Below, piece after piece: positions 63 to 36,710 of a DNA stretch of 36,850 nt. Made by a program: the position numbers and the translations under genes. Source of the stretch: a virus; IMG/VR virus record IMGVR_UViG_3300005731_000099, positions 1 to 36,850 of that record; one strand, given 5' to 3'. The notes beneath the pieces were generated by a model. That model saw only the letters and a program-made list of their open reading frames with translations. It was not told where the DNA came from and searched no databases. Within the stretch, counting starts at the first letter, position 1. Each line of letters opens with the position of its first letter.

Positions 63-110
63 ACAACTAAAATATAGACAGCGTTTTAATGATTTTTATA
101 ATTCGTTATC
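63..110 (+). repeat. attC-like palindromic element E1, downstream of the methyltransferase
   Basis: This element starts about 10 bases after the methyltransferase stop. It has AAC at 65-67, a spacer, a left arm at 74-82 (ATAGACAGC), a loop containing CGTTTTAATG (82-91), a degenerate right arm at 91-99, and GTTA at 105-108. Bases 65-91 are an exact 27-base copy, on the opposite strand, of 20897-20923 (element E2). The loop sequence recurs in element E3 at 36684-36693. The plan resembles an integron attC site, but that reading is an inference. A decayed terminator is the simpler alternative. Confidence 0.5.
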
Positions 111-117
111 GTATGTT

Positions 118-294
118 ATGACCAGAGAGCAAAGCAAACTACTAAAGCTAATAGAACGCACTCCCTATTTTATAAGCGTAGAGAATGACGTGATTAACAT
201 TAGGTGGTTAGAGTTTGACACAGCTAGGAAGTGTAAAGCGTTAAGGAAGTTGATGAGGGATTATAAGTATAGAGTGCAAATGTCAATCGAATAG
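118..294 (+). CDS. Hypothetical protein, 58 aa
   Basis: This is an ATG-to-TAG open frame of 58 codons beginning MTREQSKLLK. It is rich in Lys, Arg and Glu, predicted helical at its C-terminal half, and has no membrane segment. It starts just after palindromic element E1. Its last 12 bases overlap the end of the convergent nuclease gene on the minus strand. I do not recognise a family. Position and codon pattern favour a real small early gene. Confidence 0.5.
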   Translation: MTREQSKLLKLIERTPYFISVENDVINIRWLEFDTARKCKALRKLMRDYKYRVQMSIE

Positions 295-564
295 AACAGA
301 CAAAGCAGATTCTAAGCTATTCACTACATGGTAAGTACCACCACGCCACTCATCTTTAAATTTCTGTTCTCCTGGTGTTAGCTTCTGTTTACTCGGTGGT
401 TGGTTGCCGTCTTTAATCTCCATGATATACGTCACTCCTTTATATCCGACTAGAATATCAAAGCAGTTTTTAAGCTGTGAGGTTATTAATACGGATGCGC
501 CTACTCTTCTAAGTCCGTTTACTATCTCATTTTGGTTAGCGTCTACTCTTGCTGCTCTTCTCAT
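283..564 (-). CDS. VRR-NUC-like PD-(D/E)XK nuclease, 93 aa
   Basis: This small protein carries the core of the PD-(D/E)XK nuclease fold: an early Glu (E13), D36 in CFDILVGY, and E49-x-K51 in the following strand (IMEIKDG). It matches the short phage VRR-NUC or resolvase-like proteins of about 90-100 residues. Such enzymes are thought to cut branched DNA during replication, recombination or packaging. That role is family knowledge and is not shown here. A host-type promoter (569-599, minus strand) ends almost at the ATG, so the message may be leaderless. The gene is transcribed toward the window start, against its neighbours. Confidence 0.75.
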   Translation of the reverse strand: MRRAARVDANQNEIVNGLRRVGASVLITSQLKNCFDILVGYKGVTYIMEIKDGNQPPSKQKLTPGEQKFKDEWRGGTYHVVNSLESALSVLFD

Positions 565-568
565 GGGC

Positions 569-599
569 GGAATATAATGAAAAAATAATTAATATCCAA
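569..599 (-). promoter_or_regulatory. Bacteroidota-type promoter for the VRR-NUC gene
   Basis: On the minus strand, TTGG (599-596) is followed after exactly 19 bases by TATATTCC (576-569). This is close to the Bacteroidota housekeeping form TTTG-N19-TAnnTTTG. The predicted start of transcription falls on or beside the ATG at 564. Confidence 0.5.
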
Positions 600-623
600 T
601 AGTGTTAATTAAAAAAATAGTAT

Positions 624-631
624 TATATTTG
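624..631 (+). promoter_or_regulatory. Candidate -7 element (TATATTTG) for the 655 gene
   Basis: TATATTTG matches the Bacteroidota -7 consensus TAnnTTTG exactly. No clear -33 TTTG is visible at the usual distance. The 20-odd base leader that follows contains ACATTAAAAC (637-646), which is repeated before the gene at 35726. Confidence 0.45.
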
Positions 632-654
632 ACTAAACATTAAAACAAAGAACA

Positions 655-873
655 ATGGAATATTTAGAAAGAAAGATTTTAAGACTACAAGCGGCAATGA
701 ATAAAGCGTTTAGAGACGACCCAACGGATATTATAATTCCTGATGACTTGCAACACTTAGCAGACTTAAAAAAGGAACTGCAAGATGTAGAGATAGAATT
801 AATAATTAAGGTTAACGAGTTGGAGGGTATTTATCTTTATGGCGAGGACAGACCTAAGAATAAGTTTATGTAA
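655..873 (+). CDS. Hypothetical protein, 72 aa, early
   Basis: This is a charged, mostly helical small protein with alternating hydrophobic residues (EYLERKILRLQAAMNKAF and ELIIKVNELEG), compatible with a short coiled coil. No family is recognised. The start is set by ATG at 655, behind a TATATTTG promoter element and an A-rich leader without a Shine-Dalgarno sequence. It is the first gene of a long plus-strand run of overlapping early/middle genes. The next ATG overlaps its stop (TAATG). Confidence 0.65.
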   Translation: MEYLERKILRLQAAMNKAFRDDPTDIIIPDDLQHLADLKKELQDVEIELIIKVNELEGIYLYGEDRPKNKFM

Positions 874-1025
874 TGGGATTAAGTAAGTTACTATTCATGT
901 CAGTACGTGAGCATGAAGCACAATTAACTGACTATCAATTAGAATTAATTAATAAAATAAAAGAAGATGAACAACTCAGAGAGATTAAACCAGCTGTACA
1001 AAAAGTACGAACTGACAAAAGATGA
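873..1025 (+). CDS. Hypothetical small protein, 50 aa
   Basis: This frame starts at an ATG that shares a base with the preceding stop codon, an arrangement typical of translational coupling. It encodes MGLSKLLFMSVREHEAQLTD and then a charged helical tail ending KVRTDKR. It overlaps the next gene by 59 bases, which is more than other neighbours here, so it could be spurious. No family is recognised. Confidence 0.4.
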   Translation: MGLSKLLFMSVREHEAQLTDYQLELINKIKEDEQLREIKPAVQKVRTDKR

Positions 1026-1491
1026 TTATTTTAAGCATAAGTTTTATACGATCATAACAAGATCAGGCATTGATAAGATACAAGCTAAAGAGAATATTAA
1101 GATAGAGTACGATATCTGCAAAGCAAGTGAGGACAACAAGTATATTATTATACAAGCTTTTGCAAGTCATGGCGATAGAACTATTCAAACCTTTGGAGAG
1201 TCAAGCCCTAGCAATACAACAAATAGTTATCCAGTAGCGATGGCAGAGAAAAGAGCAATGAGTCGTGCCGTTCTTAAGTTAGCAGGTTTTTATGAGTTAG
1301 GCGCTTTCGGAGAAGATGAGAGCGATGAGTTTGATAAAAATAAAAAGCCATTCCTAACTAAGAAGCACAGAGACTACGAGAAATTAGTAAACGATTTAAA
1401 ACAGGGGACTCATAGAACGGGTGAATTATTATCTGGATATGAGATGAGTGATGAACTTAGAGAAGAACTAGAGGAGGTAGCTAATGGTTAA
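967..1491 (+). CDS. Possible single-strand annealing (ERF/Rad52-like) protein, 174 aa
   Basis: The protein has a beta-rich N-terminal half (IKIEYDICKAS, KYIIIQAFASHGDRTIQTFGE) and a conserved segment at residues 89-109 (PVAMAEKRAMSRAVLKLAGF). Such A-E-K-R-A-x-x-R-A-x-L segments occur in phage annealing proteins of the ERF/Rad52/DdrA type and in related Bacteroidota phage proteins. The C-terminal third is acidic. In phages these proteins anneal single strands during recombination-dependent replication. Assignment from one motif is tentative, and conserved hypothetical protein is the safe label. It overlaps the DnaA-like gene by 8 bases. Confidence 0.5.
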   Translation: MNNSERLNQLYKKYELTKDDYFKHKFYTIITRSGIDKIQAKENIKIEYDICKASEDNKYIIIQAFASHGDRTIQTFGESSPSNTTNSYPVAMAEKRAMSRAVLKLAGFYELGAFGEDESDEFDKNKKPFLTKKHRDYEKLVNDLKQGTHRTGELLSGYEMSDELREELEEVANG

Positions 1492-1858
1492 TGCAGTAAC
1501 ATACGTGGGGTTAGATATTAAGGCTAGGGATAGAGCAGTTAACAGAAGCAGGACGCTATCTGATTGGCGTAAAATCTTAAAGGATTACGGAACAAAGAAA
1601 GGGATGAATATAGACAGCTTATTATCTATGCATCCTATACCTAAAAAAGGGGATAGAGTTAGAGAGTATGTTTATGTTAGGCAGTCTCTATGGCACATAC
1701 TAAACAAGACTTACGGGTTTAGTTTAGTTAAGATTGCTGATGCTTTTAACAAGAATCACGCTACAATAATTAACGGAGTTAAGGCTGTTGATAACGCTTT
1801 AGACGGATTCAATCCAGAACTTAGAGAGATTTACGATAATTTTATAAAGGAGATATGA
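1484..1858 (+). CDS. DnaA domain IV-like helix-turn-helix protein, 124 aa
   Basis: Residues about 61-105 (YVYVRQSLWHIL, then SLVKIADAFNKNHATIINGV) follow the helix-turn-helix and signature helix of DnaA domain IV, where RQIAMYL, S..EIG..FG.RDHTTV is the usual pattern. The basic residue and His-Ala-Thr triad of the recognition helix is kept. There is no AAA+ domain, so it may bind DNA at a replication site or act as a regulator but cannot itself be a full initiator. It sits in an overlapping early gene run. Binding specificity is unknown. Confidence 0.65.
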   Translation: MVNAVTYVGLDIKARDRAVNRSRTLSDWRKILKDYGTKKGMNIDSLLSMHPIPKKGDRVREYVYVRQSLWHILNKTYGFSLVKIADAFNKNHATIINGVKAVDNALDGFNPELREIYDNFIKEI

Positions 1859-2082
1859 GAGCAGAAGAGAAAGCAAAAGAGTTAGTTGAAAGGTTTATCT
1901 ATAATGAGGGCTTTGGCATAACCGAAGATAGTGGGGTGATAGGTATAAATAAATATCATCAAGCCAAACAATGCGCTTTAATTTGTATTGATGAAATGGA
2001 GTCAGATGTTTCAGAGCATTATTATAACAACCGAATAAGAGATTACTATAACGATTTAAGAAGAGAAATTGAGAAACTATGA
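1855..2082 (+). CDS. Conserved small Bacteroidota phage protein, 75 aa
   Basis: This acidic helical protein begins MRAEEKAKELVERF, has CALICIDEM in the middle and ends YYNDLRREIEKL. The layout K-A-K-E-L-V ... A-L-I-C-I-D-E ... E-I-E-K-L is one I associate with small uncharacterised proteins that are very common in flavobacterial phages. Function is unknown. ATGA overlap with the DnaA-like gene indicates coupled translation. Confidence 0.65.
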   Translation: MRAEEKAKELVERFIYNEGFGITEDSGVIGINKYHQAKQCALICIDEMESDVSEHYYNNRIRDYYNDLRREIEKL

Positions 2083-2213
2083 GAGCAAAGTATAAAGGGG
2101 AATTAGTGTATATTAAATACGAGCCTAAAGAGCATGACTATGCGTTAGTGAGTTATAATAAAGACTTTAGTAAGCGGTTTAAGGTTAATAAGAGTGAGTT
2201 AAAAGGGATATAA
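2079..2213 (+). CDS. Hypothetical small protein, 44 aa
   Basis: This is an ATGA-overlapped frame encoding a basic, beta-rich peptide (KYKGELVYIKYEP, YALVSYNKDF, RFKVNKSELKGI). The alternating pattern could form a tiny SH3-like or beta-barrel fold, but this is only an impression. Tight coupling to the upstream stop supports translation. Confidence 0.5.
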   Translation: MRAKYKGELVYIKYEPKEHDYALVSYNKDFSKRFKVNKSELKGI

Positions 2214-2264
2214 AGTTATTAACATTTGCAACCTATTTAAAAAATAAGCGTTATATTGCCACAC

Positions 2265-2792
2265 ATGAGTCCACAAGAGGCGGTACAAGAAGTAATTACA
2301 GATGACACATGGTTAAAGCTGTGTAATAAGTGGACGACTAGAGACGGGCAAACACATTTTGCAGGGGATTTATACGGGGAGTTTTGTTTAACTATGCTAG
2401 AGTACGATCCTAAAAAGATTCAATCTATGCTAGATAATGCTAAAGACATGAGCCATCCACTAGATTTAGTGCGCTTGTGTTGTTTCTCTGTTCTTAATCG
2501 AATGTGGAATAGTAGCACTAGCCCTTTTTATAGGAAGTATAGAAAGCATTTTGTAATAGATAGGCTAAGTTATGAAGCGGAGTTTTTAGATGAGCCGATA
2601 GACATTGAGACGTTTCTAGTAAGTTACAATAAGGTCAAACAAGATGCACCACGATTAGAAGTATTAATGACTAGGTTGTATGCAGAGTTAGGAAGTTTTA
2701 GAGCCATTGAAAGAGAGGTAGGTATTAACCATCAAACAGCATTTAGATATGTTAGAAAGTTTAGAGATAGATTTAACTCCAGCGATTATTAG
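2265..2792 (+). CDS. Sigma-70-like transcription factor, 175 aa
   Basis: The N-terminal half (FAGDLYGEFCLTMLEYD, residues 32-48, followed by helices to SPFYRKYRK) resembles the region 2 helices of ECF-type sigma factors. Residues about 142-170 (GSFRAIEREVGINHQTAFRY) form a region 4-like helix-turn-helix. Its length suits a minimal sigma factor. I infer a role in redirecting host polymerase, perhaps to the repeated late motif upstream of the structural genes. The ATG at 2265 is preferred over a TTG nine bases upstream. TTTG (2225) and TATATTGC (2252-2259) upstream may be a promoter giving a near-leaderless message. A small terminase-type DNA-binding protein is less likely because a terminase small subunit is present at 4044. 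Confidence 0.6.
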   Translation: MSPQEAVQEVITDDTWLKLCNKWTTRDGQTHFAGDLYGEFCLTMLEYDPKKIQSMLDNAKDMSHPLDLVRLCCFSVLNRMWNSSTSPFYRKYRKHFVIDRLSYEAEFLDEPIDIETFLVSYNKVKQDAPRLEVLMTRLYAELGSFRAIEREVGINHQTAFRYVRKFRDRFNSSDY

Positions 2793-3009
2793 TTACTTCT
2801 GGTTACTCACACCGTTACCAGGATTAGCAATGTACCACGCTAACAGATTAAATCTAAGGAGTTGGATTAAGTTTTTAGTATCTAAATTAGCTTGTAGTCA
2901 TTGCGTTCCTTTTTGGTTAACGATTGGGATATGTTTTAACAGCCCTAACCTATTAGTATTGATATTTATAAATGTAGTATTAACTAAATTAACAATCAGA
3001 TTGACATGA
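2749..3009 (+). CDS. Small membrane protein with CxxC motif, 86 aa
   Basis: Two hydrophobic segments (residues about 12-28 and 52-80) flank a CSHCVPFW motif. Similar short proteins with a Cys-x-x-Cys-x-x-Phe-Trp motif next to membrane helices recur in Bacteroidota phages without known function. The gene overlaps the sigma-like gene by 44 bases in another frame. Possible roles are membrane remodelling or a superinfection block, but nothing here decides this. Confidence 0.6.
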   Translation: MLESLEIDLTPAIISYFWLLTPLPGLAMYHANRLNLRSWIKFLVSKLACSHCVPFWLTIGICFNSPNLLVLIFINVVLTKLTIRLT

Positions 3010-3287
3010 TATTTAATAGGAGATATAAAAGGTTAAGGGAGGATATAAACAAGGCTAGGGCTGAAGATTTGGGTAGTATACTTATGATGCTTGACCCAGT
3101 TATTAAAAAAGGAGACGAGGTGGACGGAATGAAAGTATTGGACGTTGTTGATAGAATCTGTAATGTTTGTGTGGGTGAGCGGTATAATTATGTGAACATA
3201 ACTTATGAACTGATAGTTAAAACAAAAAAGGGCGAACATTATACGCATACCTATATTGCTGAATGTAGACGCATAAAAAAAATATAA
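3006..3287 (+). CDS. Hypothetical protein, 93 aa
   Basis: The basic N-terminus (MIFNRRYKRLREDINKAR) is followed by a compact beta-rich domain (DPVIKKGDEVDGMKVLDVVD ... YVNITYELIVKTKKG). The segment KKGDEV-GMKV resembles small barrel folds in which a loop precedes a strand pair. No family is recognised. ATGA overlap with the membrane protein gene supports the start. Confidence 0.6.
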   Translation: MIFNRRYKRLREDINKARAEDLGSILMMLDPVIKKGDEVDGMKVLDVVDRICNVCVGERYNYVNITYELIVKTKKGEHYTHTYIAECRRIKKI

Positions 3288-3299
3288 AATAGATAAATT

Positions 3300-3398
3300 A
3301 TGAGCGAAGACAACAAAGAAACGGGATTACAATTATTCTTAACATTGGTAAGTATCGGTGTTACTATTTGGGTACTATTTAGCGTGTTTAATTCGTGA
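3300..3398 (+). CDS. Single-pass membrane peptide, 32 aa
   Basis: The frame encodes a short hydrophilic head (MSEDNKETG) and one membrane helix (LQLFLTLVSIGVTIWVLFSV). Its stop overlaps the following GTG start (GTGA), a typical coupling signal. Such tiny membrane peptides are frequent in phage early regions. Function is unknown. Confidence 0.5.
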   Translation: MSEDNKETGLQLFLTLVSIGVTIWVLFSVFNS

Positions 3399-3682
3399 GT
3401 GAATTAGAGGAAATATTATTTAATGATGCTTTAGAAGTAGTGTCTTACGAGTCTATATTAGAGGCTAGAGGGTATAAGTCCAATAGGGTGCAGATAAACT
3501 ACTTCAATAAAGGATGCATTGATGGGATTATTTATGATAATAATTTAGAGTGCTTTACCCATTTAGTATATCCAAAAGGGATAGGCAAAGGCATTACGTT
3601 TGATGATAACAGCACAGAAGCATACTTTGATGATGTTGAATATATCGAAATAGAGATACCACATTTTAACCCGATTAAATGA
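3395..3682 (+). CDS. Hypothetical protein, 95 aa (GTG start)
   Basis: This acidic protein has a likely mixed alpha/beta fold and segments ILEARGYKSNRVQINYF and YIEIEIPHFNPIK. The GTG start is chosen because it overlaps the stop of the membrane peptide and no ATG lies nearby in frame. The family is not recognised. Confidence 0.55.
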   Translation: MSELEEILFNDALEVVSYESILEARGYKSNRVQINYFNKGCIDGIIYDNNLECFTHLVYPKGIGKGITFDDNSTEAYFDDVEYIEIEIPHFNPIK

Positions 3683-3876
3683 GAGAGTTAGCAATAAAGC
3701 ATAAGGATTACATACTACATTGCTTAAAAGAGAATCAATGTAGGAATGGACTAATAAGAACTGAGTTATTCACAGCATACATAGCTGAGACTGGCGCAAA
3801 AGTAAATAAGTCTTGCCCTAGTTGTGTGTTAACAGAAGTATATCCAGCGTATAAAAAGATAATAGATGCTTTATAA
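3679..3876 (+). CDS. Hypothetical protein, 65 aa
   Basis: This small protein has three Cys (HCLKENQC and SCPSCVLTEVY). The CPSC pair could form half a metal site or a disulfide. ATGA overlap with the preceding gene supports the start. No family is recognised. Confidence 0.5.
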   Translation: MRELAIKHKDYILHCLKENQCRNGLIRTELFTAYIAETGAKVNKSCPSCVLTEVYPAYKKIIDAL

Positions 3877-4051
3877 TACGGTAGCAGAACTATACGGATT
3901 TAACCACGTTAAACTAAGAGGGGTTACACCTGATGAACTATTAAGTAAAAGAGTTAAAGAGGTTAAGGATATGTTTAATAGGTCTGTAAAGAGCAGTAAA
4001 TGGTTTTGGACTGATAATGGTTTATGTATTAAAATTATATTGAATGAGTAA
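3866..4051 (+). CDS. Hypothetical protein, 61 aa
   Basis: This helical small protein contains GVTPDELLSKRVKEVKDMF and a Trp-rich end (KWFWTDNGLCIKIILNE). It overlaps both the previous gene (11 bases) and the terminase small subunit gene (8 bases), so it belongs to the same transcription unit. Function is unknown. Confidence 0.5.
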   Translation: MLYNTVAELYGFNHVKLRGVTPDELLSKRVKEVKDMFNRSVKSSKWFWTDNGLCIKIILNE

Positions 4052-4508
4052 CCTAACAGATAAGCAAGAGAAGTTCGCACAGCTAGTAGTTAAACTAGGG
4101 AATCAATCAGAAGCGTATAGACAAGCGTATGACGTTACAGACCCTAAAGCGGATTGGATACCATCTAAGGCTTCACACTTAATAGCTGAGGACAATATTA
4201 AGGCAAGGATTCAAGAGATTAGAGACGGTGCAAAGGCTAGGAATCAAATAGACTTAGATACTATTGTAAGAGGGCTACTAAAGATAGTTGACCAAGCGGA
4301 TGAGGTCTTTGACTTAGCTAACTTAAAGGACGCTTCTAAGGATGAGACTAGACGGTTCTATAGGTTAATGAGTCAGACTAATAACAGTCATAAGATAGCA
4401 GCTTATAAAGAGATAGCTAGGTTATTGAAGCTAGATGATCCTGAAGCGGATAAAGGAGGTACTACTAATGTGACTAACTTTTACTTTAACGAAAAGAGTA
4501 ATGATTAA
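4044..4508 (+). CDS. terS: Terminase small subunit, 154 aa
   Basis: The N-terminus follows the Terminase_2 pattern: LTDKQEKFAQLVVKLGNQSEAYRQAY, then a helix ending ASHLIAEDNIKARIQEIRD. This is the DNA-binding helix-turn-helix of phage small terminase subunits. The middle is helical and likely mediates ring assembly, and the C-terminus (TNVTNFYFNEKSND) may contact the large subunit. It recognises the packaging site on phage DNA. Unusually, the large subunit gene lies almost 4 kb downstream, beyond a sugar-transferase island. My certainty about the family is high. Confidence 0.85.
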   Translation: MSNLTDKQEKFAQLVVKLGNQSEAYRQAYDVTDPKADWIPSKASHLIAEDNIKARIQEIRDGAKARNQIDLDTIVRGLLKIVDQADEVFDLANLKDASKDETRRFYRLMSQTNNSHKIAAYKEIARLLKLDDPEADKGGTTNVTNFYFNEKSND

Positions 4509-4641
4509 AATATTTACACAGCCCTTACTAATTGTGGTAGGGATGCCATTTATAGTATTAGGATTTATAGGCAGGATAATGTATGAAGCTATAGAGTTCG
4601 GTATTGAACTTGCTAATGACTTTTTTGAAAGATATGATTAA
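4501..4641 (+). CDS. Small membrane protein, 46 aa
   Basis: The frame encodes MIKIFTQPLLIVVGMPFIVL and a following amphipathic acidic tail (YEAIEFGIELANDFFERYD), so one membrane helix is expected at residues 8-25. It overlaps the terminase small subunit gene by 8 bases and the next glycosyltransferase gene by 8 bases, which supports translation. Function is unknown. Confidence 0.5.
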   Translation: MIKIFTQPLLIVVGMPFIVLGFIGRIMYEAIEFGIELANDFFERYD

Positions 4642-5662
4642 AATACTATACGTAGGGTATCAAGGTAGCGGTATATTTAACTATAGACTAATGCCACATA
4701 ATTACTTAGACCCTAATAAGTTTGAAGTACACCATACGCCAATGATAGATACTGGTAAGGACTTAACAGAGGATTTAAAGCCATACGACATAGTAGTATT
4801 TAACAGACTCGTAGCATCTCACAAAGGTAAGGACTATACAGATAAGACTATAAACGAGATTAAGGCAGCAGGGTGTAAGCTGGTTATTGATGTAGATGAT
4901 TACTGGCAGTTACCAAAGTACCACGACTTGCACAAGGAATACGAAAAGAGTTTCAGAATACGTATGGTTAAATGTCTTAGGGCTGCAGATATTGTCCTAT
5001 GCGCTACTCCTTTTTTAAGGGATAAGGTATTACCATACAATAAGAACGTCCATGTAATTAAGAACTGCGTAGATTATAGGGATAGGCAATGGACGTGGAG
5101 TGACACTAAAACACCAAGCGATAAGTTAAGGGTAGGCTATACGGGTGCAGCACACCACTTAAAAGACATTCAAAGTATAGCGGATGACTTTAAACAGATA
5201 GCTAAGTTAGACGTTGAATTGAATTATTACGGATTTGCACACCACAAAGAAGCGTATGAGATGTGTAAGATAATGTCTGATAACGGCAATAACAAAAACT
5301 TTGATGCGTACCCTAGTTTAACTGCTGAATGTTACGGTGCTTTTTATACTAGGATAGATGTACTAATAGCACCACTATTTAAGGATGAGTTTACTAGGTG
5401 TAAGTCTGAATTGAAAGCTGTTGAAGCTGGTTATAATAGATGTGCGTTTGTAGGTTCTAATCAAGAGCCTTATACTTACTTATGTAATGAGTACAATAGC
5501 CATTTAGTTAATCCTGGAGAGTGGGCAGATGCTATAAGTGATTTAATGAATGAGGATAGACGTAAGGAGTTAGCAGGTAATTTATTTGCAGATGTGAGTA
5601 AGGAGTATGATTTAGATAATGAGGTAGGTAAACGTGCAAGACTTTATGAAGAGTTATTATGA
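4634..5662 (+). CDS. GT4-like glycosyltransferase, 342 aa
   Basis: The protein has the two Rossmann-like halves of a GT-B enzyme. The N-terminal half begins MIKILYVGYQGSG and contains LVIDVDDYW and DIVLCATPFLRDKVL. The C-terminal half begins LRVGYTGAAHHLKD and includes SELKAVEAGYNRCAFVGSN, where the family's nucleotide-sugar-binding E-x7-E region lies, and the family-typical NPGEWADAISDLM. It probably transfers a sugar from a nucleotide donor. ATG at 4634 is preferred over an upstream TTG (4604) because the Rossmann strand begins at once. Acceptor is unknown: virion protein, DNA or host glycan. Confidence 0.75.
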   Translation: MIKILYVGYQGSGIFNYRLMPHNYLDPNKFEVHHTPMIDTGKDLTEDLKPYDIVVFNRLVASHKGKDYTDKTINEIKAAGCKLVIDVDDYWQLPKYHDLHKEYEKSFRIRMVKCLRAADIVLCATPFLRDKVLPYNKNVHVIKNCVDYRDRQWTWSDTKTPSDKLRVGYTGAAHHLKDIQSIADDFKQIAKLDVELNYYGFAHHKEAYEMCKIMSDNGNNKNFDAYPSLTAECYGAFYTRIDVLIAPLFKDEFTRCKSELKAVEAGYNRCAFVGSNQEPYTYLCNEYNSHLVNPGEWADAISDLMNEDRRKELAGNLFADVSKEYDLDNEVGKRARLYEELL

Positions 5663-5813
5663 TTTAGAGCAGATGTATCCCGTAGTAGAGTATCATAATT
5701 TAACTCAACGATTCCTGCTAACTAACATCCCTTACTTTATGATTGAGGGCGTTATAATGTACGGTGGTTATAATCTACACAAATACGACTTAGGTAAAAT
5801 ATATTTAAATTAA
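5646..5813 (+). CDS. Hypothetical protein, 55 aa
   Basis: This Tyr-rich small protein (MKSYYDLEQMYPVVEYHNL, PYFMIEGVIMYGGYNL) lies between two glycosyltransferase genes. It overlaps the former by 17 bases, and its stop shares a base with the next ATG (TAATG). No family is recognised. It may be an accessory of the glycosylation island. Confidence 0.5.
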   Translation: MKSYYDLEQMYPVVEYHNLTQRFLLTNIPYFMIEGVIMYGGYNLHKYDLGKIYLN

Positions 5814-10448: not shown

Positions 10449-10657
10449 TGGCTAACACTAAACCATATTACAAGGGTAGGGATAGTCTTTATAAGTTTGC
10501 TGATGAATGGGGGTTAAATTCCTATGAGTTTGATATAGTTAAAAGAATAGTAAGATGCAGACATAAAGGGCAATTTATATCGGACTTGAATAAGACAAAG
10601 GACGTTATAGATATCTACTTAAAAGAGAAAGCGGATGCCGAAAAGCTGATAGAGTAG
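10448..10657 (+). CDS. DUF3310-like small protein, 69 aa
   Basis: The sequence PYYKGRDSLYKFADEW, FDIVKRIVRCRHKGQFISDL and KTKDVIDIYLKE follows the short DUF3310 domain (Y-x-x-G ... G-x-x-x-K-Y-x-x-R ... D-L-x-K-x-x-x-Y-L). Such proteins accompany phage nucleotide and DNA metabolism genes, but their activity is unknown. It is the last gene before two terminators and the late block. Confidence 0.6.
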   Translation: MANTKPYYKGRDSLYKFADEWGLNSYEFDIVKRIVRCRHKGQFISDLNKTKDVIDIYLKEKADAEKLIE

Positions 10658-10710
10658 GCAGTATTTAAACCTCATAGTTTTCGGTTCTATGAGCGTTAGA
10701 TAATAGTTTA

Positions 10711-20276: not shown

Positions 20277-20882
20277 ATGGATAAGGTAAAAGTATTTGAG
20301 ATAGTTATAGAAAATAACCTAGAAGATGAAACGGGGGTGGACTTCATAGCGTTAGTTGACCAACCTGCAATCATGAAGAATTGGATGGCGTTTAATAGTC
20401 AAGAGAATAAACTAGCTTTTAAAAGTGTTGACAATGAGAAGCGGTTAATCATGGGGGCTGCTATGATACCAGACTTAAAGATATACAGACACGATGCAGA
20501 ACGTGGAGACTTCTATGTATATTTCTCTAAAGACACTATCTCAGATATCAGTAAGAAATACCACCGTAAAGGATTTAGTAATAACGTTAATGTTATGCAC
20601 GATCCTAATACACTAGCTACTGACGTATATGTAGTGGAGTCTTTTATAACTGATGAGGCTAGGGGCATATCAGATCCTAAAGGCTTTGACAATCCAGAGG
20701 GGACTTGGTATGTTACTATGCACGTAGATAATGACACTATTTGGAATGACTTTGTTAAGACTGGTCAATTTAAAGGATTCTCTGTGGAGGGCTTATTTAA
20801 TGAGATTGAAGATACAGAGACTAAAGAAGATAAGATACTAAAAGAGATTGACGCTATTATCAAATCAGAGTTTAAGAAATAA
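20277..20882 (+). CDS. XkdF-like prohead protease candidate, 201 aa
   Basis: The segments DFIALVDQPAIMKNWMAF, FSNNVNVMHDPNTLATDVYV (with the family's N-x-x-H position), VESFITDEARG, EGTWYVTMHVDNDTIWNDF and GQFKGFSVEGLF follow the Phage_XkdF family, predicted serine proteases of the capsid module. The ATG at 20277 is chosen because late motif C abuts it; an in-frame ATG upstream would lie inside the tape measure gene. Its product likely trims scaffold or capsid. The stop codon is part of palindromic element E2. Confidence 0.7.
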   Translation: MDKVKVFEIVIENNLEDETGVDFIALVDQPAIMKNWMAFNSQENKLAFKSVDNEKRLIMGAAMIPDLKIYRHDAERGDFYVYFSKDTISDISKKYHRKGFSNNVNVMHDPNTLATDVYVVESFITDEARGISDPKGFDNPEGTWYVTMHVDNDTIWNDFVKTGQFKGFSVEGLFNEIEDTETKEDKILKEIDAIIKSEFKK

Positions 20883-20926
20883 CGAACCATAAACAGCATT
20901 AAAACGCTGTCTATATTTTAGTTAGC
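20880..20926. repeat. attC-like palindromic element E2 between convergent genes
   Basis: TAAC (20880-20883) and GTTA (20921-20924) form the outer pair. ATAAACAGC (20889-20897) and GCTGTCTAT (20906-20914) form a 9-bp inner stem with one mismatch-type pair. The stop codons of the protease gene (plus) and DUF3268 gene (minus) lie in the two outer boxes. Bases 20897-20923 repeat 65-91 on the other strand. A bidirectional terminator is an alternative reading. Confidence 0.55.
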
Positions 20927-21344
20927 TGCAATAAATTTTATTCGCACAATAAGGCTTGCAAACCCGCACAACTTCATTGCAAAGTTCAACGTCAAACATT
21001 CCTATATGCGTAAATTCCTTTGGCGTTCCTATTTGCTTACCTAACCAAGCGTAAGCAGAGTTTCTAACTTCGTGCTTTCTTCTGCCCTGTTTCATTCCTT
21101 TACGCCAAAGTTGGTCAAAGTAAAAGTGTGCCTTCTTTTTTGCCTCCCGCAATTCCCTATTTGCAAGCCTTCCCAACGCTTGCTTACTCGTGCCGTGATG
21201 AACACCTACATAGGAATCACAGTCTTTGCAGTAATAAACCATTCCATAGCTTTTACCGTATATCACGGCACTATCCACGTAATCGGGTTTCTTGCCACAG
21301 TAAGGGCATTTTTTTGCGGTTGTTATATCTTTATCAAATTCCAT
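20922..21344 (-). CDS. DUF3268-like zinc-finger protein, 140 aa
   Basis: A zinc ribbon is visible: C13-x2-C16 (CPYCG) and C39-x2-C42 (CKDCDSYVGVH). It is followed by a helical part with LGRLANRELREAKKKAHFYF, AYAWLGKQIG and HIGMFDVELCNEVVRVC. These match the zinc-finger-containing DUF3268 family, which occurs on phages and mobile elements with unknown function. It runs against the late genes and is bracketed by two attC-like elements (E4 upstream, E2 downstream), so it may be a mobile cassette or moron. Confidence 0.75.
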   Translation of the reverse strand: MEFDKDITTAKKCPYCGKKPDYVDSAVIYGKSYGMVYYCKDCDSYVGVHHGTSKQALGRLANRELREAKKKAHFYFDQLWRKGMKQGRRKHEVRNSAYAWLGKQIGTPKEFTHIGMFDVELCNEVVRVCKPYCANKIYCS

Positions 21345-29874: not shown

Positions 29875-29875
29875 T

Positions 29876-30061
29876 ATGAACTTTAAAGAACTAGACCACA
29901 AGATAAATGTATCACTAGGCTTAGTGTTGTTTCTCATTGTGGCTAGTTGGTTCGTTAGTGAGTTCTACCATAAACAGAATACGCTTGAAGATAGAATGGA
30001 TAAAAGATATAATAGATTAAATGAAAAGGTAAAAGAGTTACATAATGAAAGAGCAGATTGA
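29876..30061 (+). CDS. Membrane protein with coiled coil, 61 aa
   Basis: One membrane helix (residues about 13-29, LGLVLFLIVASWFVSEF) is followed by a charged coiled coil (LEDRMDKRYNRLNEKVKEL). It lies between the last virion gene and the holin candidates, and overlaps the next gene by 17 bases. It may be a lysis accessory such as an antiholin, but this is inferred from position only. Confidence 0.5.
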   Translation: MNFKELDHKINVSLGLVLFLIVASWFVSEFYHKQNTLEDRMDKRYNRLNEKVKELHNERAD

Positions 30062-31397: not shown

Positions 31398-31401
31398 CCC
31401 T

Positions 31402-32202
31402 ATGAAAAAGCGCCTTTTTTACGACGTCGAAACATCATTTTGTCAAGGTCATTTTTGGCGACCTGGTTGGAATCAAACAATAAACCCTAGTCAAATAATG
31501 AGACATACGCAAATCATTAGCGTATCGTGGGCATGGGATGATGAACCAGTACAAAACTTAGATTGGGGCTTAAAGAAGCAATGTGATAAGAAGCTACTCA
31601 AAAAGTTTATTAAGGAATTAGACAAAGCGCATGAGATAGTAGCGCATAATGGTAAACGGTTCGACATTAAATGGATAAGAACTAGAGCAGCGTATCATGG
31701 TTTAGATATGAAGCCTAGCTATAATGAAGTTGATACTTTAAAGCTATGTAAAAGATATTTAAACTTACCATCTAATAAGTTAGCGGAGGTCGCTAGATAC
31801 TTTAGTTTGACGGCTAAGTTAGATCCTGGAGGGATACAAACTTGGATAGATGTAATAATCAATAAAGATAGAGCAGCACTAGACAGAATGTTAGAGTATG
31901 GCGATGGCGATATAATAACGCTAAGAGAAGTATTTAAGAAGCTGCAACCTTACGTTTATCCTCAAACTAACTTCAATGTATTAACTGGTGGCGAGAAGTG
32001 GCAATGTCCTGAGTGCAAGAGTTCTCACGTTAAAGTTAATGGTAAACCTTACGCAACAGCAGCTGGTACGGTTAAAAACTATATGGCTTGTACTAAGTGT
32101 AACACAACGTACACGATAAACAATAAGACGTTTAGTGATTACGTTAAGTTTAGATCATTACACCCTAGTGCAAAGGGTAAGGATTTTGACGTACTAAAAT
32201 AG
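31402..32202 (+). CDS. DEDD-type 3'-5' exonuclease/RNase H-like nuclease with zinc ribbon, 266 aa
   Basis: The RNase H-like fold shows FYDVET (D8, E10), VAHNGKRFDIKWI (D88) and YGDGDIITL (D168/D170), the four acidic residues of DEDD nucleases. A C-terminal zinc ribbon follows (C202-x2-C205 and C230-x2-C233). The form resembles RNase_H_2-type exonucleases seen in phages. It may proofread or process replication intermediates. It is convergent with the primase gene, and a palindrome lies between their stops. Confidence 0.8.
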   Translation: MKKRLFYDVETSFCQGHFWRPGWNQTINPSQIMRHTQIISVSWAWDDEPVQNLDWGLKKQCDKKLLKKFIKELDKAHEIVAHNGKRFDIKWIRTRAAYHGLDMKPSYNEVDTLKLCKRYLNLPSNKLAEVARYFSLTAKLDPGGIQTWIDVIINKDRAALDRMLEYGDGDIITLREVFKKLQPYVYPQTNFNVLTGGEKWQCPECKSSHVKVNGKPYATAAGTVKNYMACTKCNTTYTINNKTFSDYVKFRSLHPSAKGKDFDVLK

Positions 32203-32221
32203 TATCTTATTCTGATACTAT
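32199..32221. terminator. Bidirectional hairpin between convergent exonuclease and primase genes
   Basis: ATAGTATC (32199-32206) and GATACTAT (32214-32221) form a perfect 8-bp stem around a 7-base loop, overlapping the ends of both genes. It lacks a long T tract but is placed to stop transcription from both sides. Confidence 0.55.
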
Positions 32222-33001
32222 CCAGTCGTTAATGTCGTTATATCCTTTAAATATACTACGCTTATCTACGCCGTTTTTTATTTTCTTAAAGCACTCATCA
32301 CCAGCTTTATCATTATCTCCGTAAAATATAGCACCGTCTTTATTCTCAACGGAATCAATAAAAGACACAGAGTTTAAAACTATGCACGTATCTTTAGGTG
32401 TTTTATTGTACTTAGACATTAAGCTCAGAAAGTCTATAAAGCCCTCAAATATATGAACCTTACTACTGCCTTTTATTGTTGTAAACCATTTCGGGCTAGT
32501 TGATATTTTGATATATTTATTCCTTAACTCATAGCCCCCTTTATCGTTTTTAAATCCGATAGCGTACTGAGTTTTATTATTTAGGTCAAATGCTATTTCC
32601 TTACAATACTTTTTTGCTATTTGTATGTTGATACGTCTACTTTTCAAGTAGCTAATTAGATACGCTTTGCTTAACTCTGATTCGCTGATTATCTTTATCG
32701 GAGACTTAACAGCTTTAGGTTTAACGCTTTCAAATACTGAGCCACTTAAAAAAGATATAGCCTCTTTAAAATCTAATCTATCTATCAATTCAACGAGCCT
32801 AATAACATCTCCTCCAAAACCAGCCCCATAATCAAACCAAGTATTTTTACTATTGTTAACGCAAAAGGATGCTGTTTTCTCATTTCTAAAAGGGCTTAAA
32901 AAAAAGGAGTACCTAGAGTTGCTGCGTTTATCTAGTTCAAATCCTTTGCCTATTAAATAATCAACGCAAGATTTCTGTTTTATTTCATTTAGTTCTGTCA
33001 T
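32207..33001 (-). CDS. DNA primase (CHC2/TOPRIM type) with a cysteine-poor zinc-finger domain, 264 aa
   Basis: The N-terminal domain keeps the primase frame around the zinc finger (YSFFLSPFRNEKTASFCV, TWFDYGAGFGGDVIRLVELI) but lacks the four metal ligands. The TOPRIM domain shows HIFEGFID (E186) and IFYGDNDKAG (D229, D231). It would synthesise primers for the ATPase encoded upstream in the same operon. ATG at 33001 is preferred; an upstream ATG (33031) would overlap the previous gene. The reduced metal site is typical of some mobile-element primases. Confidence 0.8.
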   Translation of the reverse strand: MTELNEIKQKSCVDYLIGKGFELDKRSNSRYSFFLSPFRNEKTASFCVNNSKNTWFDYGAGFGGDVIRLVELIDRLDFKEAISFLSGSVFESVKPKAVKSPIKIISESELSKAYLISYLKSRRINIQIAKKYCKEIAFDLNNKTQYAIGFKNDKGGYELRNKYIKISTSPKWFTTIKGSSKVHIFEGFIDFLSLMSKYNKTPKDTCIVLNSVSFIDSVENKDGAIFYGDNDKAGDECFKKIKNGVDKRSIFKGYNDINDWIVSE

Positions 33002-33003
33002 GT

Positions 33004-33258
33004 CTATTTGTTTTTCATAAATTCTCCACAAGATACTATCTTTTTTTGATCCATAGCGTCTAATAATTCTTTAACCGTTCTGCAATATTCTCTGCTATCA
33101 TTCTCGGATAAACTTCTAAACCACCATTTTTTACTATCTGCGGTCGCTTCTAAGAGGTTAAAACCACTAAAGTAGTACATAGTATTACCTGACTTAAAGA
33201 TAAGCCCGTAAACAGGCTTAAAACGATTCGGATATATTTCACTATCAAAAATCATCAT
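33004..33258 (-). CDS. Hypothetical protein, 84 aa
   Basis: The start MMIFDSEIYPNRFKPVYGLI resembles the first strand of a DEDD/DnaQ-like nuclease (FDxE), as if it were an exonuclease fragment. The remainder (YYFSGFNLLEATADSKKWWF) shows no further catalytic residues. This may be a reduced or decayed nuclease, but that is a guess. It sits between the ATPase and primase genes. Confidence 0.55.
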   Translation of the reverse strand: MMIFDSEIYPNRFKPVYGLIFKSGNTMYYFSGFNLLEATADSKKWWFRSLSENDSREYCRTVKELLDAMDQKKIVSCGEFMKNK

Positions 33259-33382
33259 TACAAAATTTCTTATTAGTCTCGTGACATTCTATGAAAGCAG
33301 ACACGATACCAGCGATTATTAATATTATTAATTGGGCTGGATTAGGAATCCATAGTAGTAATTTAAAAAGGTAAGGTATCAT
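33245..33382 (-). CDS. Small membrane protein, 45 aa
   Basis: ATG at 33382 overlaps the end of the ATPase gene by 20 bases. The product is mostly one or two membrane helices (MIPYLFKLLLWIP, then AQLIILIIAGIVSAFIE) with a polar C-terminus. It ends 14 bases inside the next gene. A membrane peptide within a replication operon is notable. It could anchor replication to the membrane, but this is speculative. Confidence 0.5.
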   Translation of the reverse strand: MIPYLFKLLLWIPNPAQLIILIIAGIVSAFIECHETNKKFCNDDF

Positions 33383-34322
33383 CTTCTAAGAAATTATCAA
33401 AGCCCTCGAAGTTATCATTAGGCTTTATTGTTGTTTGTTCTGGTTTATTCTTTTGGTCGTGGTATCTATATCCCTTTAAAGGGTCTTTACCTCCTACAAT
33501 GAATCCGCACCCTTTGTTATAGTCGCATAGTACGGGTTCATTTATCCACGTTTGCTTACCTCCAGTATCAGTGTCTTTTACTTTCTTAACTTCTACCATA
33601 GTGTAGAACCACATAGTGCGGTGGTCTATTAGTCTATGAATTATAATAAAATCATCTACTTTGTTTGTGAACGGCTTGCCCCCTTCAATATCTGATTTGA
33701 TTGGTGGCATAGTATGACCAGCCCAATCATGACTCTCTGGGTAACTTGCTCCACGTCTGCCTGATGCTGTGGCGGGATGGCAATTAACGTAAATAGTTTT
33801 CTCTAGTTTCTTACAAAATAATCTAAACGCTCTCATATTTTTGTAGTTTATATCGTAAGAGAAGCTACTATCTAGTCCGTTGTAGGGATCAATTATACCT
33901 GCATCAAAATCTCCTACAGACTCAAATATCTTTAACACATCTTCTGGTTTATATTCCTTTCTGTTGTCTACAAAATAAAAGTGGCTTTCTATTTTATCGT
34001 TGCACTCTTCTATCTCTTGGTGTGTTAGACTCATAAACTCTTGACCGTAATACATTTGTATCATATCTCGTATGACCTTGTACGTCTTATTTTCATCCAT
34101 AAGCATTACAAACTTTAGATCATGTCTTAAAGCTAGACACAGAAAATACCACATAGCCCAATAAGATTTACCTACGTTATCATGTCCTAGTATGATATTA
34201 GTTTGCTCATATTTAAATCTTACATAGTCATCTAATTCACATCCTATACCTAGCCCTTTAGGTATCTTACCGTCTCGATAGTCTTTTAAAGTATTTAGAC
34301 TTGCTCTTTTTTGTTCAATCAT
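33363..34322 (-). CDS. RecA/DnaB-like replicative ATPase with SSB-type C-terminal tip, 319 aa
   Basis: The ATPase core shows Walker A GHDNVGKS (46-53) and Walker B FDAGIIDPYNG (139-149, D145), with KTIYVNCHPATASGRRG as a later conserved segment typical of phage DnaB/RepA-like helicases. The chain lacks the DnaB N-terminal domain. It ends LEDDTLPF, resembling the acidic tip of SSB. It is likely the replicative helicase or a recombinase-like ATPase, with the helicase favoured by the neighbouring primase and loader-like genes. Confidence 0.75.
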   Translation of the reverse strand: MIEQKRASLNTLKDYRDGKIPKGLGIGCELDDYVRFKYEQTNIILGHDNVGKSYWAMWYFLCLALRHDLKFVMLMDENKTYKVIRDMIQMYYGQEFMSLTHQEIEECNDKIESHFYFVDNRKEYKPEDVLKIFESVGDFDAGIIDPYNGLDSSFSYDINYKNMRAFRLFCKKLEKTIYVNCHPATASGRRGASYPESHDWAGHTMPPIKSDIEGGKPFTNKVDDFIIIHRLIDHRTMWFYTMVEVKKVKDTDTGGKQTWINEPVLCDYNKGCGFIVGGKDPLKGYRYHDQKNKPEQTTIKPNDNFEGFDNFLEDDTLPF

Positions 34323-34864
34323 TTGTCTTGTATTTGTCTCATTACATTACTAGCATAATCATTACTACCGTTCTGCGTTACCTCCTCAATGTACTGCAAG
34401 GTGTTTAGTAAACTACTCTTCCAGTTCTTAATCTGTTTACCGTTTCCGTTTTTCCAACCGTTCTCAATCCAACTATCGTACTTCAATCTTAAATGACTTA
34501 GGCTAACCTTTGGTTTTTTTGTTAGAGCATACGCTTTAAAATCTTCAAACTCGGGTATAGTGTATTCTACTTTCTCTTTCTCTTTCTCTTGTACGGCAGG
34601 GGTTACCCTACCCCCTTGCCTACCCCCTTGCATAGGGTCATTAGTTTTATGTTTATACCCCTTCACTTGCTGGTCAATACTATCATATTGAGCAGTCCAC
34701 ACTAAGTCAACAATTAAACTCAATTCACTTGGCTCAACATCTAGGAACTGCTTATCTAATAATGCAGATATAAACGCTAATTTATCTTTATCATTTGGTA
34801 GCCTATTAAATACATCATAATAAGACCTATAAAAATTAAATGCTTTTCTTTTTGTCTCTTTCAT
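34319..34864 (-). CDS. DUF6291-like replication initiation/loader protein, 181 aa
   Basis: The N-terminal part (KRKAFNFYRSYYDVFNRLPN, LAFISALLDKQFL, DSIDQQVKGYKHKT) fits the DUF6291 domain found in Bacteroidota phage replication proteins. The C-terminal part (LRLKYDSWIENGWKNGNGKQ, IKNWKSSLLNTLQYI) resembles the region of phage initiators that contacts helicase. A Glu/Lys linker (QEKEKEKVE) joins the two. ATG at 34864 is chosen because the domain starts there. It overlaps the ATPase gene by 4 bases. Confidence 0.7.
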   Translation of the reverse strand: MKETKRKAFNFYRSYYDVFNRLPNDKDKLAFISALLDKQFLDVEPSELSLIVDLVWTAQYDSIDQQVKGYKHKTNDPMQGGRQGGRVTPAVQEKEKEKVEYTIPEFEDFKAYALTKKPKVSLSHLRLKYDSWIENGWKNGNGKQIKNWKSSLLNTLQYIEEVTQNGSNDYASNVMRQIQDK

Positions 34865-34866
34865 GT

Positions 34867-35130
34867 CTAGTCGGCGTTTTTGAATTCTAGCAACTTTTCT
34901 GATGCGGTTGATATATTGGTATAAGTCCAAGCCCAAACGCCAAAACTTTTAGACTTAGGGTAGCTTATACAGCCCCATCTATCATTCTCTACTCTTTTAA
35001 AAACTTCATAATGAGTATTACCATCGCTTTCTACTAGATAAATAAATCCGTATTCAGTTTTTTTAACTTGGGTAAACTTAAACCCTTTTACTTCTCCTTT
35101 GCCTATAAAGGACTTTTCTAATTCTCTCAT
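34867..35130 (-). CDS. Conserved hypothetical protein, 87 aa
   Basis: This beta-rich protein contains FTQVKKTEYGFIYLVESDGN, HYEVFKRVENDRWGCISYPK and WAWTYTNISTA. The pattern is one I know from uncharacterised proteins of flavobacterial phages. It is the first gene of the minus-strand replication operon, behind a structured leader of about 100 bases. Function is unknown. Confidence 0.6.
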   Translation of the reverse strand: MRELEKSFIGKGEVKGFKFTQVKKTEYGFIYLVESDGNTHYEVFKRVENDRWGCISYPKSKSFGVWAWTYTNISTASEKLLEFKNAD

Positions 35131-35145
35131 GTCATTAAAAATTAA

Positions 35146-35233
35146 AACCTCTATAAATCCAGATGCTCTTCACTTCATCTTTCATTATAGAGGTTAGTTA
35201 AAAACTCTTTTGTCGCTATTGTGAAGAGGCGAC
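35146..35233 (-). promoter_or_regulatory. Structured leader with three interleaved inverted repeats
   Basis: Arms A are 35146-35156 and 35185-35195 (11 bases, perfect). Arms B are 35166-35173 and 35221-35228 (CTCTTCAC/GTGAAGAG). Arms C are 35212-35216 and 35229-35233 (GTCGC/GCGAC). One B arm lies in the A loop and the other in the C loop, so the stems are interleaved and could compete or form a pseudoknot. The region is the 5' leader of the replication operon. Confidence 0.55.
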
Positions 35234-35239
35234 TATGTA

Positions 35240-35270
35240 CAAATATAGTTATTTTTTTTGATTCTGCAAA
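35240..35270 (-). promoter_or_regulatory. Consensus Bacteroidota promoter of the replication operon
   Basis: On the minus strand, TTTG (35270-35267) and TATATTTG (35247-35240) are separated by exactly 19 bases, a full match to the host housekeeping consensus. The promoter overlaps the 3' end of the 35249 gene. Transcription should start near 35233. Confidence 0.75.
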
Positions 35271-35602
35271 CTTATTGCATCATTAATTAAGTATTGAATC
35301 TCATTATAGTTATCTACTACCAATGTATCTTCATCATCATTTAAGACGATAGTAGATAAATCCACTTCCTCATGGTCTACTTCATAGCAGTTAGTAGATG
35401 GATCGAATAAGCCTATACCCTGATAGTTAAATATAAATTCATATCTATCCTCTCCATGATATGCTTCTACTACAAAGTATGTTTCCATGTGTCCTAGTTC
35501 TACATCTGGGTAAAGGTCTGATAAGCACCTAGTACTATCGCTAACTTCAAATTCTAATTTACCCGCCTTAATAAGTTCTTTTACTTGTTCTACTTGTTTC
35601 AT
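35249..35602 (-). CDS. Acidic hypothetical protein, 117 aa
   Basis: The product from ATG at 35602 begins MKQVEQVKELIKAGKLEFEV and is rich in Asp and Glu later on (VLNDDEDTLVVDNYNEIQ). The N-terminal helix followed by GKLEFEVSDSTR is compact. Acidic early proteins may mimic DNA or bind host factors, but no family is recognised. Starts at 35623 or 35653 are possible; 35602 is favoured by its A-rich leader. Its end carries the replication promoter. Confidence 0.55.
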   Translation of the reverse strand: MKQVEQVKELIKAGKLEFEVSDSTRCLSDLYPDVELGHMETYFVVEAYHGEDRYEFIFNYQGIGLFDPSTNCYEVDHEEVDLSTIVLNDDEDTLVVDNYNEIQYLINDAISLQNQKK

Positions 35603-35670
35603 GTTGTAATGTTTTATATTCATAATTGATTTATTGGTGTAAATGTAAAACAAAGAAAGTTAATAAAAAA

Positions 35671-35702
35671 CTTGTGTATTAAAAAAGTTTGATATAATTT
35701 AG
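35671..35702 (+). promoter_or_regulatory. Candidate promoter for the 35726 gene
   Basis: CTTG (35671-35674) and TAATTTAG (35695-35702) are separated by 20 bases, an imperfect host-type promoter. The leader holds ACATTAAAAC (35709-35718), as before the 655 gene. Confidence 0.35.
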
Positions 35703-35725
35703 CCCCGAACATTAAAACTAAACAA

Positions 35726-35854
35726 ATGAATCAAACACTTAAAAACATCATCCATATTCAAGCCCAGCTATTAAAGTTGAGAGAGCGTAAGAACGTCGTG
35801 GTGTTTCCAAATAGGGAAACTTTTAACCCTGATAAGGTGCATATTAAAAACTAA
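35726..35854 (+). CDS. Hypothetical small protein, 42 aa
   Basis: This is a basic helical peptide (NQTLKNIIHIQAQLLKLRER) with a short strand (NVVVFPNRETFNP). It has its own promoter-like element and the A-rich leader shared with other early genes. Function is unknown. Confidence 0.5.
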   Translation: MNQTLKNIIHIQAQLLKLRERKNVVVFPNRETFNPDKVHIKN

Positions 35855-35859
35855 AGACA

Positions 35860-36273
35860 ATGGGAAAATATAAACGGATAAAAGCAAAACCAAAGAAGGA
35901 AAAAAGATTTGCAAACGTGAAGATGATTCTTGACTTAATGCACGAACATAAGGATAAAATTGAAACATTACCTGTAACTAAAATTCAAGTTGAAAAACGT
36001 GATGTAGAACAAGGTGATAAATGGGATAGTGAAACAGGGTTTGAATACTTAATCTTTTTTGCGGATAAGAGTGCCTACCTTGTTGGTGAGACTAAAATAA
36101 TTGAAGACCGAGAAGATTATGCACAAGCCGATAGTTGGATGCAGCATTATTGCCGAGACTATTACCAAGAAAGATGGACTGTACCTGCTCTTGAAGTTCT
36201 TGAAAAGCTAGAGGCTGTATTGTTATATGTAACTACGGGATATACACAACAAACCAAGACAGATGAAACATAG
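35860..36273 (+). CDS. Hypothetical protein, 137 aa
   Basis: The N-terminus is strongly basic (GKYKRIKAKPKKEKRFANVK) and the rest mixed alpha/beta (FEYLIFFADKSAYLVGETKI). The C-terminus QQTKTDET is encoded by the 23-base repeat shared with 6898-6920. No family is recognised. It lies five bases after the previous gene and overlaps the glucosaminidase-like gene by 11 bases. Confidence 0.6.
   Translation: MGKYKRIKAKPKKEKRFANVKMILDLMHEHKDKIETLPVTKIQVEKRDVEQGDKWDSETGFEYLIFFADKSAYLVGETKIIEDREDYAQADSWMQHYCRDYYQERWTVPALEVLEKLEAVLLYVTTGYTQQTKTDET
36247..36269 (+). repeat. 23-base direct repeat, copy 2 (copy 1 at 6898-6920)
   Basis: The copy is identical to 6898-6920 and covers the end of the 35860 gene and the ATGAAAC start of the 36263 gene. 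Confidence 0.7.
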
Positions 36274-36661
36274 AAACGCATATTTACTATTTATCATACT
36301 AATTACTCTAATGCTTATCGGTAAGAGTGTAGGGGCGCAAGATAAAACAGAACTTGTACAGCTTATCAAAGGGCATGGAATAGAACACGCAGAGATTGTG
36401 TACGCTCAAATGATGCTAGAGAGCGGTAACTTAGAGTGTACTGATTGTAGTTGGTCAAATTATTCCAACCCGTTCGGTTTTCACAATGGTAAAAGGTATC
36501 TAGTTTATGATAACTTAGAACACGCTTTGCAAGGATATAAGGATTGGCAAGAGTGGCGTTGCCCTGATTGTGAGAGTGAGGCGGAGTATTATGATTGCCT
36601 TGTTAAGCATTGGGGTGCTGTTAATATGGTAGGATATGTTGAGAAACTTAAATTAATATAG
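36263..36661 (+). CDS. Secreted glucosaminidase-like peptidoglycan hydrolase, 132 aa
   Basis: A signal peptide (residues 1-25, hydrophobic AYLLFIILITLMLIG, cleavage after VGA) precedes a lysozyme-like domain: IVYAQMMLESG with candidate catalytic E53, NPFGFHNGKRYLVYDN, ALQGYKDWQEW, and VGYVEKLKLI. This follows the glucosaminidase pattern (Q-A-x-x-E-S-G ... N-x-F-G ... Y-x-x-x-x-x-A ... Y). Four Cys (TDCS and PDCE) suggest disulfides in the periplasm. It could aid lysis or modify the host wall during infection. Palindrome E3 follows the stop. Confidence 0.7.
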   Translation: MKHRNAYLLFIILITLMLIGKSVGAQDKTELVQLIKGHGIEHAEIVYAQMMLESGNLECTDCSWSNYSNPFGFHNGKRYLVYDNLEHALQGYKDWQEWRCPDCESEAEYYDCLVKHWGAVNMVGYVEKLKLI

Positions 36662-36663
36662 GA

Positions 36664-36710
36664 TAACGTTGAGTATAAACGGTCGTTTTAATGCCGTTTA
36701 TACATTGTTG
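36664..36710 (+). repeat. attC-like palindromic element E3, upstream of the methyltransferase
   Basis: TAAC (36664-36667), a perfect 10-bp stem GTATAAACGG (36673-36682)/CCGTTTATAC (36694-36703), spacers of 5 and 3 bases, and GTTG (36707-36710). The loop holds CGTTTTAATG, identical to E1 and E2. It begins two bases after the glucosaminidase stop and lies 30 bases before the methyltransferase ATG. Confidence 0.6.

Follow-up and report, generated by a model that had tools for sequence, protein, structure and literature searches.

The two 7-nt boxes of attC sites have the consensus RYYYAAC and GTTRRRY. The second is also given by Qi et al. 2023 (PMC9892861), whose text, as far as it was available to us, describes attC sites and methyltransferase cassettes in virulent phages, including Polaribacter phage P12002L. 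Under IntI1, attC2 of P12002L (not matched to coordinates here) recombined with attI1, and "divergent directions" were remarked in this phage. A phage element of this kind adjoining methyltransferases is, hence, already published. Regarding bacteria, the accessible text of the IntegronFinder 2.0 paper (PMC9024848) gives a complete integron within Bacteroidetes proper only in Salinibacter ruber, and Bacteroidota are named among the integron-bearing phyla in the part of a review available to us (PMC8618304). The locus studied here belongs to the IMG/VR virus record IMGVR_UViG_3300005731_000099, a linear record of 36,850 bases encoding terminase, portal and other phage genes, which was analysed over its whole length (hereafter, the window). 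It carries three palindromic elements (E1, E2 and E3) and, at its two ends, the two ends of a gene for a Dam-type N6-adenine methyltransferase, which E3 precedes and E1 follows. We propose, with a probability of about 0.8, that E1-E3 belong to a Bacteroidota-specific family of attC-type recombination sites and that the Dam gene lying between E3 and E1 was most likely captured as a cassette.

E1 and E3 had been noticed in the initial annotation as palindromes sharing their loop and an outer AAC/GTT pair. Both were recovered at the same places by R1, a covariance model of the family (56 rows, E1-E3 among them), whose next match elsewhere in the window reached 14.1 bits (21.8 on the mirror strand of E3). 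A second model (R2), made of 34 bacterial-contig elements only, found all three elements (Table 1) above a noise of at most 16 bits, save for a score of 19.6 on the E3 mirror strand. Among the underlying alignments, A1 has 83 of 102 unique rows, and clean boxes were the criterion by which A2 (56 rows) and A5 (34 rows) were picked by hand; no row of A5 comes from a viral contig, a phage record or the window, though its contigs may include prophage. The elements were unmatched in an Rfam scan.

Table 1. Elements and neighbouring features at the Dam locus and elsewhere in the window
Feature	Positions	Strand	Evidence and remarks
E3, attC-type element	36659..36715	+	R1 71.0 bits; R2 70.1 bits, E 1.2e-16
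E1, degenerate element of the E3 family	59..113	+	R1 45.1 bits; R2 24.0 bits, E 0.0015
E2, third element, between two converging genes	20875..20929	-	R1 53.4 bits; R2 39.4 bits, E 6e-8
Leader, from E3 to the methyltransferase start, GCGGATTTAAA	36716..36739	+	Similar stretches after many phage elements
Start of a Dam-type N6-adenine methyltransferase (37 residues), truncated at the record end	36740..36850	+	phrog_111 E 5e-7; Lauvirus lau218 Dam
Last 17 residues (GKAGMHDSMVVVFDGRT) and stop, same methyltransferase family	1..54	+	Translation beside the Lauvirus Dam C-terminus CGMHDTMVVIFKG, by eye
Gene directly before E3	36263..36661	+	PF01832 (glucosaminidase-like) E 1.1e-5, 26.5 bits, below the Pfam cut-off of 30.2
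58-aa gene starting just 3' of E1	118..294	+	First downstream frame; no Pfam match

E3 consists of TAACG, a spacer, a perfect stem of 10 bp around the loop TCGTTTTAATG, ATT and GTTG. Between its outer boxes and inner arms lie unpaired spacers of 5 and 3 nt, within the 3-6 bases announced beforehand. The stem of E1 is imperfect and its boxes are AACT on the left and CGTTAT on the right, and the left half of E2 is near-identical to that of E1, with AACTAAAATATAGACAGCGTTTTAATG common to both. Outer AAC/GTT core boxes able to pair were found in all three elements. The loop CGTTTTAATG, common to E1 and E3, occurs three times in the window versus 0.12 expected, and the loop together with paired arms and AAC/GTT boxes (a feature set picked after the sites were known) was found three times in the window versus none in 1000 first-order Markov sequences. 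A chance origin of the three palindromes is, therefore, very unlikely.

Scanning of viral contigs returned 33 stretches, including chance matches, and 44 when the 3' arm was left free. In 39 distinct phage elements collected with this arm free, all six free positions were paired in 36 and GTT was present in every one (AAC was part of the search pattern). Alignment A3 showed 98.0% of cells paired versus 83.8% after shuffling, a covariation score of 0.376 versus 0.114 (at most 0.09 for slid structures) and 80 cells changed on both sides versus 27.1. This indicates that the fold is conserved while the arm sequence varies by compensating pairs. A scan of genomes gave 63 stretches, nearly all from Bacteroidota by title, and R2 matched in 20 of 395 genomes sampled from one phylum, that of a genome titled Tenacibaculum and presumably Bacteroidota. 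P12002L has the same element family as the window, with R2 scores of 56.7 and 45.7 bits at the elements flanking its methyltransferase gene. The family to which E1-E3 belong is a Bacteroidota attC-type hairpin with a conserved loop, compensating arms, unpaired spacers and outer AAC/GTT boxes.

It is quite improbable that these palindromes have nothing to do with recombination and act only as transcription terminators or as RNA hairpins at the ends of genes. The elements do lie close behind stop codons, E2 stands between converging genes and E3 is a strong hairpin; but neither E1 nor E3 is followed by a T tract, as had been remarked at the outset, and conservation in the alignment extends to the boxes outside the stem. 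Moreover, exchange breakpoints fall in the boxes and bacterial copies occur in arrays near a recombinase (see below). A terminator role may nevertheless coexist with a recombination role. Two variants of the hairpin were also observed. Mini-hairpins with the inverse layout GTTR-arm-CGTTTTAATG-arm-YAAC were present in the loci L004 (5222-5287), L006 (3714-3779, minus strand) and L026 (5741-5806, minus strand) and in phage P12024L (L179), and the phage elements at L098 (about 2761-2820) and L180 (5483-5540) have longer unrelated loops, reminiscent of classical attC sites with their variable tops.

The orientation of the elements was scored on the strand whose loop reads CGTTTTAATG, AACG being required to its left; E1, E2 and both P12024S elements lack AACG beside the loop and are omitted from this count. 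Among 54 phage elements, 36 had both flanking genes on the loop strand and none had both on the other strand, the rest being mixed or one-sided, whereas the corresponding figures for 45 bacterial elements were 1 and 29 (p 7e-18). Expressed over informative copies, the phage polarity was found in 36/36 phage and 1/30 bacterial elements. With 90-aa frames the counts of the two arrangements were 25 and 0 in phages and 1 and 26 in bacteria. A looser count, not deduplicated, gave 20 and 3 among 36 viral rows and, for bacteria, 1 and 39 among 58 rows. The canonical order of a cassette, gene then attC, was not that of the phage elements. The description of E1 and E3 as sites directly 3' of coding sequences, as in a normal cassette, had to be modified accordingly: the phage polarity is flipped, and the unit, as seen in P12002L and P12002S, runs attC-leader-gene.

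The order of the unit became visible in sibling phages. P12002S has a methyltransferase unit of about 0.9 kb that P12002L lacks, with both joins in TAACGT, and its order, attC-leader-gene, agrees with the flipped phage polarity; the 'gene then attC' form of a phage cassette was dropped after this comparison. Between P12024S and P12024L, whose flanks are 99.4% and 96.6% identical, a methyltransferase segment is exchanged for a 31-nt mini-hairpin, and the swap is bounded by GTTGT and ACAACG. L003 and L138 have the upstream gene in common and an element 87.5% identical, followed by different downstream genes. Thus, for P12002L/P12002S and P12024L/P12024S alike, a methyltransferase unit comes or goes with breakpoints only a few bases away from the AAC(G)/GTT boxes. 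The comparison of related phages with and without the gene, suggested beforehand, gave box-bounded gain and loss in these pairs; for the window phage itself, the searches yielded no close relative to compare.

Such swaps could also be the work of ordinary homologous recombination acting on the elements as shared sequence, with no site-specific enzyme, a possibility raised in the available text of Qi et al. 2023 (PMC9892861). Element and leader are 75-93% identical between otherwise unrelated phages, and a tyrosine recombinase is absent from the window and from most phage records searched. We consider this explanation improbable, however, since arms and loop are not the same in the two element copies of P12002S, whose common sequence at the join is limited to TAACGT, and since neither a fixed polarity nor compensating arm changes are needed for homologous exchange. 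The column consensus of the leader across the phage elements was only modest.

Marine bacteria also carry the family in gene arrays. The bacterial arrays examined consist of co-directional genes with short elements between them, to which one (L195) adds longer folded sites that have CGTT(A/G) at their end. They are like canonical integron arrays, those with a TIGR02249 IntI, in their tandem co-directional genes, in their folded AAC/GTT sites, including long variable ones, and in the nearby tyrosine recombinase. The difference lies in this enzyme. Canonical IntI exceeds the TIGR02249 cut-off of 265, whereas the seven sequences examined from the XerA/IntI-like clade linked to the elements (277-453 aa; 192-238 bits on NF040815) reached 197-212 bits and left model positions ~180-240 unmatched, which we take to be the expected place of the integron-integrase insert. 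According to the accessible text of PMC8138268, conservation of the insert in its subgroup is incomplete. An element was located within 25 kb of a clade recombinase in 11 of 28 cases versus 0 of 44 XerC/D-type controls (p 7e-6), and a clade recombinase was present in 13 of the 20 sampled genomes with elements versus 103 of the 375 others (p 0.0008). The remaining 17 of the 28 clade cases, which had no element within this distance, often on another contig, weigh against the link.

Assignment of the elements to canonical IntI was rejected: this enzyme exceeded the cut-off in none of 28 element-bearing genomes, showed no excess in the sampled genomes with elements (5/20 versus 100/375 in the others), and no elements were found near it in five IntI loci with flanks of about 1.5 kb. 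Over the whole sample, TIGR02249 passed its cut-off in 105 of 395 genomes, far above the rarity reported for complete Bacteroidetes genomes.

Downstream of the phage elements, Pfam assigned the first gene (n=48) to N6_N4 methylases in 11 cases, C5 methylases in five and Mom in one, versus one N6_N4 methylase, two C5 methylases and one D12 protein among the genes before them (n=41, set A7, in which five of 46 genes were left out because they also follow another element). Methyltransferases are thus more frequent after than before the element (17/48 versus 4/41, p 0.006, taking Pfam families as separate proteins). One of the 48 downstream genes matched the Acb2/Tad1 hairpin domain, presumably a sign of anti-CBASS or anti-Thoeris cargo besides methyltransferases. 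It is possible, at a little under even odds in our estimation, that Bacteroidota have an integron-like platform of their own, with attC-type arrays and insert-less XerA/IntI-like recombinases, that is missed by standard criteria, and that their phages carry a mirror-image pool, attC before gene, consisting largely of DNA-modification and possibly other counter-defence genes.

At the window locus itself, the 37-residue N-terminal piece of the methyltransferase shows 67.6% identity over its N-terminal 34 residues (tblastn) to the Dam protein of Lauvirus lau218 (142 aa, PF05869), and the C-termini are alike by eye. A direct Pfam search with the 37-aa piece gave no match, and the likeness to PF05869 comes from the two protein ends alone. 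The bracketing of a methyltransferase by E3 and E1 across the window ends, as first described, is upheld to the extent that both gene ends were found. About 86 codons (~0.26 kb) are missing between them, and because of this the record is not a closed circle; contiguous DNA was not seen, and the bracket is a sound inference across the gap. Searches for close relatives with the pre-E3 gene, the terminase and the gene adjacent to E2 found none, so that there is no direct pair with and without the gene. The terminase search yielded six loci with only 28-31% identity, and in a DNA search of positions 34500-36850 among phages the Lauvirus methyltransferase was the only match. Given the truncation of Dam at both record ends, the degeneracy of E1 and the lack of a close relative, exchange at the window phage's own locus is a presumption. 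The cassette reading first offered for this locus accordingly stands for the family, through the recovery of all three elements by R2, the bacterial arrays and the exchange between siblings, and is presumed for this phage.

Several points weigh against our interpretation, beginning with the lack of a close relative of the window phage. By inspection, E1-E3 depart from the full RYYYAAC/GTTRRRY boxes (GGATAAC/GTTGTAG in E3, TTACAAC/GTTATCG in E1 and AGCTAAC/GTTATTT in E2; the right box of the P12002L element at 30003-30061 is GTTAGGC). In E1 and E2, AAC is not followed by G and the right box is CGTTAT, and no further copies of their subtype were found in viral contigs with two patterns, the window's own record excluded. 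The only E1/E2-like match was a half-site in Rhodobacteraceae phage LS06. The loop served as search key, and part of its conservation comes from this selection. No PF00589 tyrosine recombinase was present in the window, nor in 40 of 46 records searched (out of 55 first-named), although records lacking it may be fragments. Finally, attC1 of P12002L did not recombine, according to the accessible text of Qi et al. 2023 (PMC9892861).

The LS06 match (L194, 2490-2560; Rhodobacteraceae phage LS06-2018-MD05) is a hairpin of the form AACAGCGTTTTAATG ... ATTCGTTATTC with an unclear left box. A pattern for the E1 junction had no match in viral contigs other than the window's own record.

The sites could be inactive relics of the entry of a cassette into an ancestor, with the methyltransferase now an ordinary phage gene. 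The degeneracy of E1 and the absence of a second state of the locus in a close relative are compatible with this, but E3 shows no decay and fits the consensus of the family (71.0 bits). In the distant relative L019 (74% nucleotide identity), the next gene comes immediately after the homologue of the pre-E3 gene, and both element and methyltransferase are absent. We regard the relic explanation as unlikely and favour recombination sites of the attC type, with Dam as a captured cassette.

We propose a route in which the hairpin would be formed by a single strand and bound at its paired AAC/GTT boxes by a tyrosine recombinase, probably of the host, after which a unit of element, leader and gene would be inserted or swapped through strand exchange at the box YAACG. 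The phage could thereby exchange modification genes that would protect its DNA from host restriction, and the unit in the window may have moved in this way. This suggests that marine Bacteroidota phages reload anti-restriction genes via integron-type sites; lytic phages with no integrase of their own might change their modification pattern in this way. If true, the flipped polarity could keep the pools separate, as units moved from a phage to a host array, or from a host to a phage, would then be read in reverse. The consistency of the flip is a sharp, testable fact on how the phage and bacterial pools are related, and the link to an insert-less recombinase bears on what an integron integrase needs for acting on folded sites.

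Neither the mirror-image polarity nor the link to a recombinase without the integron-integrase insert was found in print. Apart from Qi et al. 2023 (PMC9892861), no title describing the element family or its polarity was found in a search with preprints and most subscription papers outside its scope, and among the matches listed for the exact string CGTTTTAATG no title was on the subject. The accessible text of Qi et al. itself differs from the present work in that the polarity rule, the insertions in sibling phages and the Bacteroidota element family were not seen there.

Elsewhere in the window, a DUF805b RNA motif (RF02914) was detected at 10628-10660 on the plus strand, at the end of a short gene, with 45 bits against a cut-off of 35.6. 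It is a feature separate from the elements.

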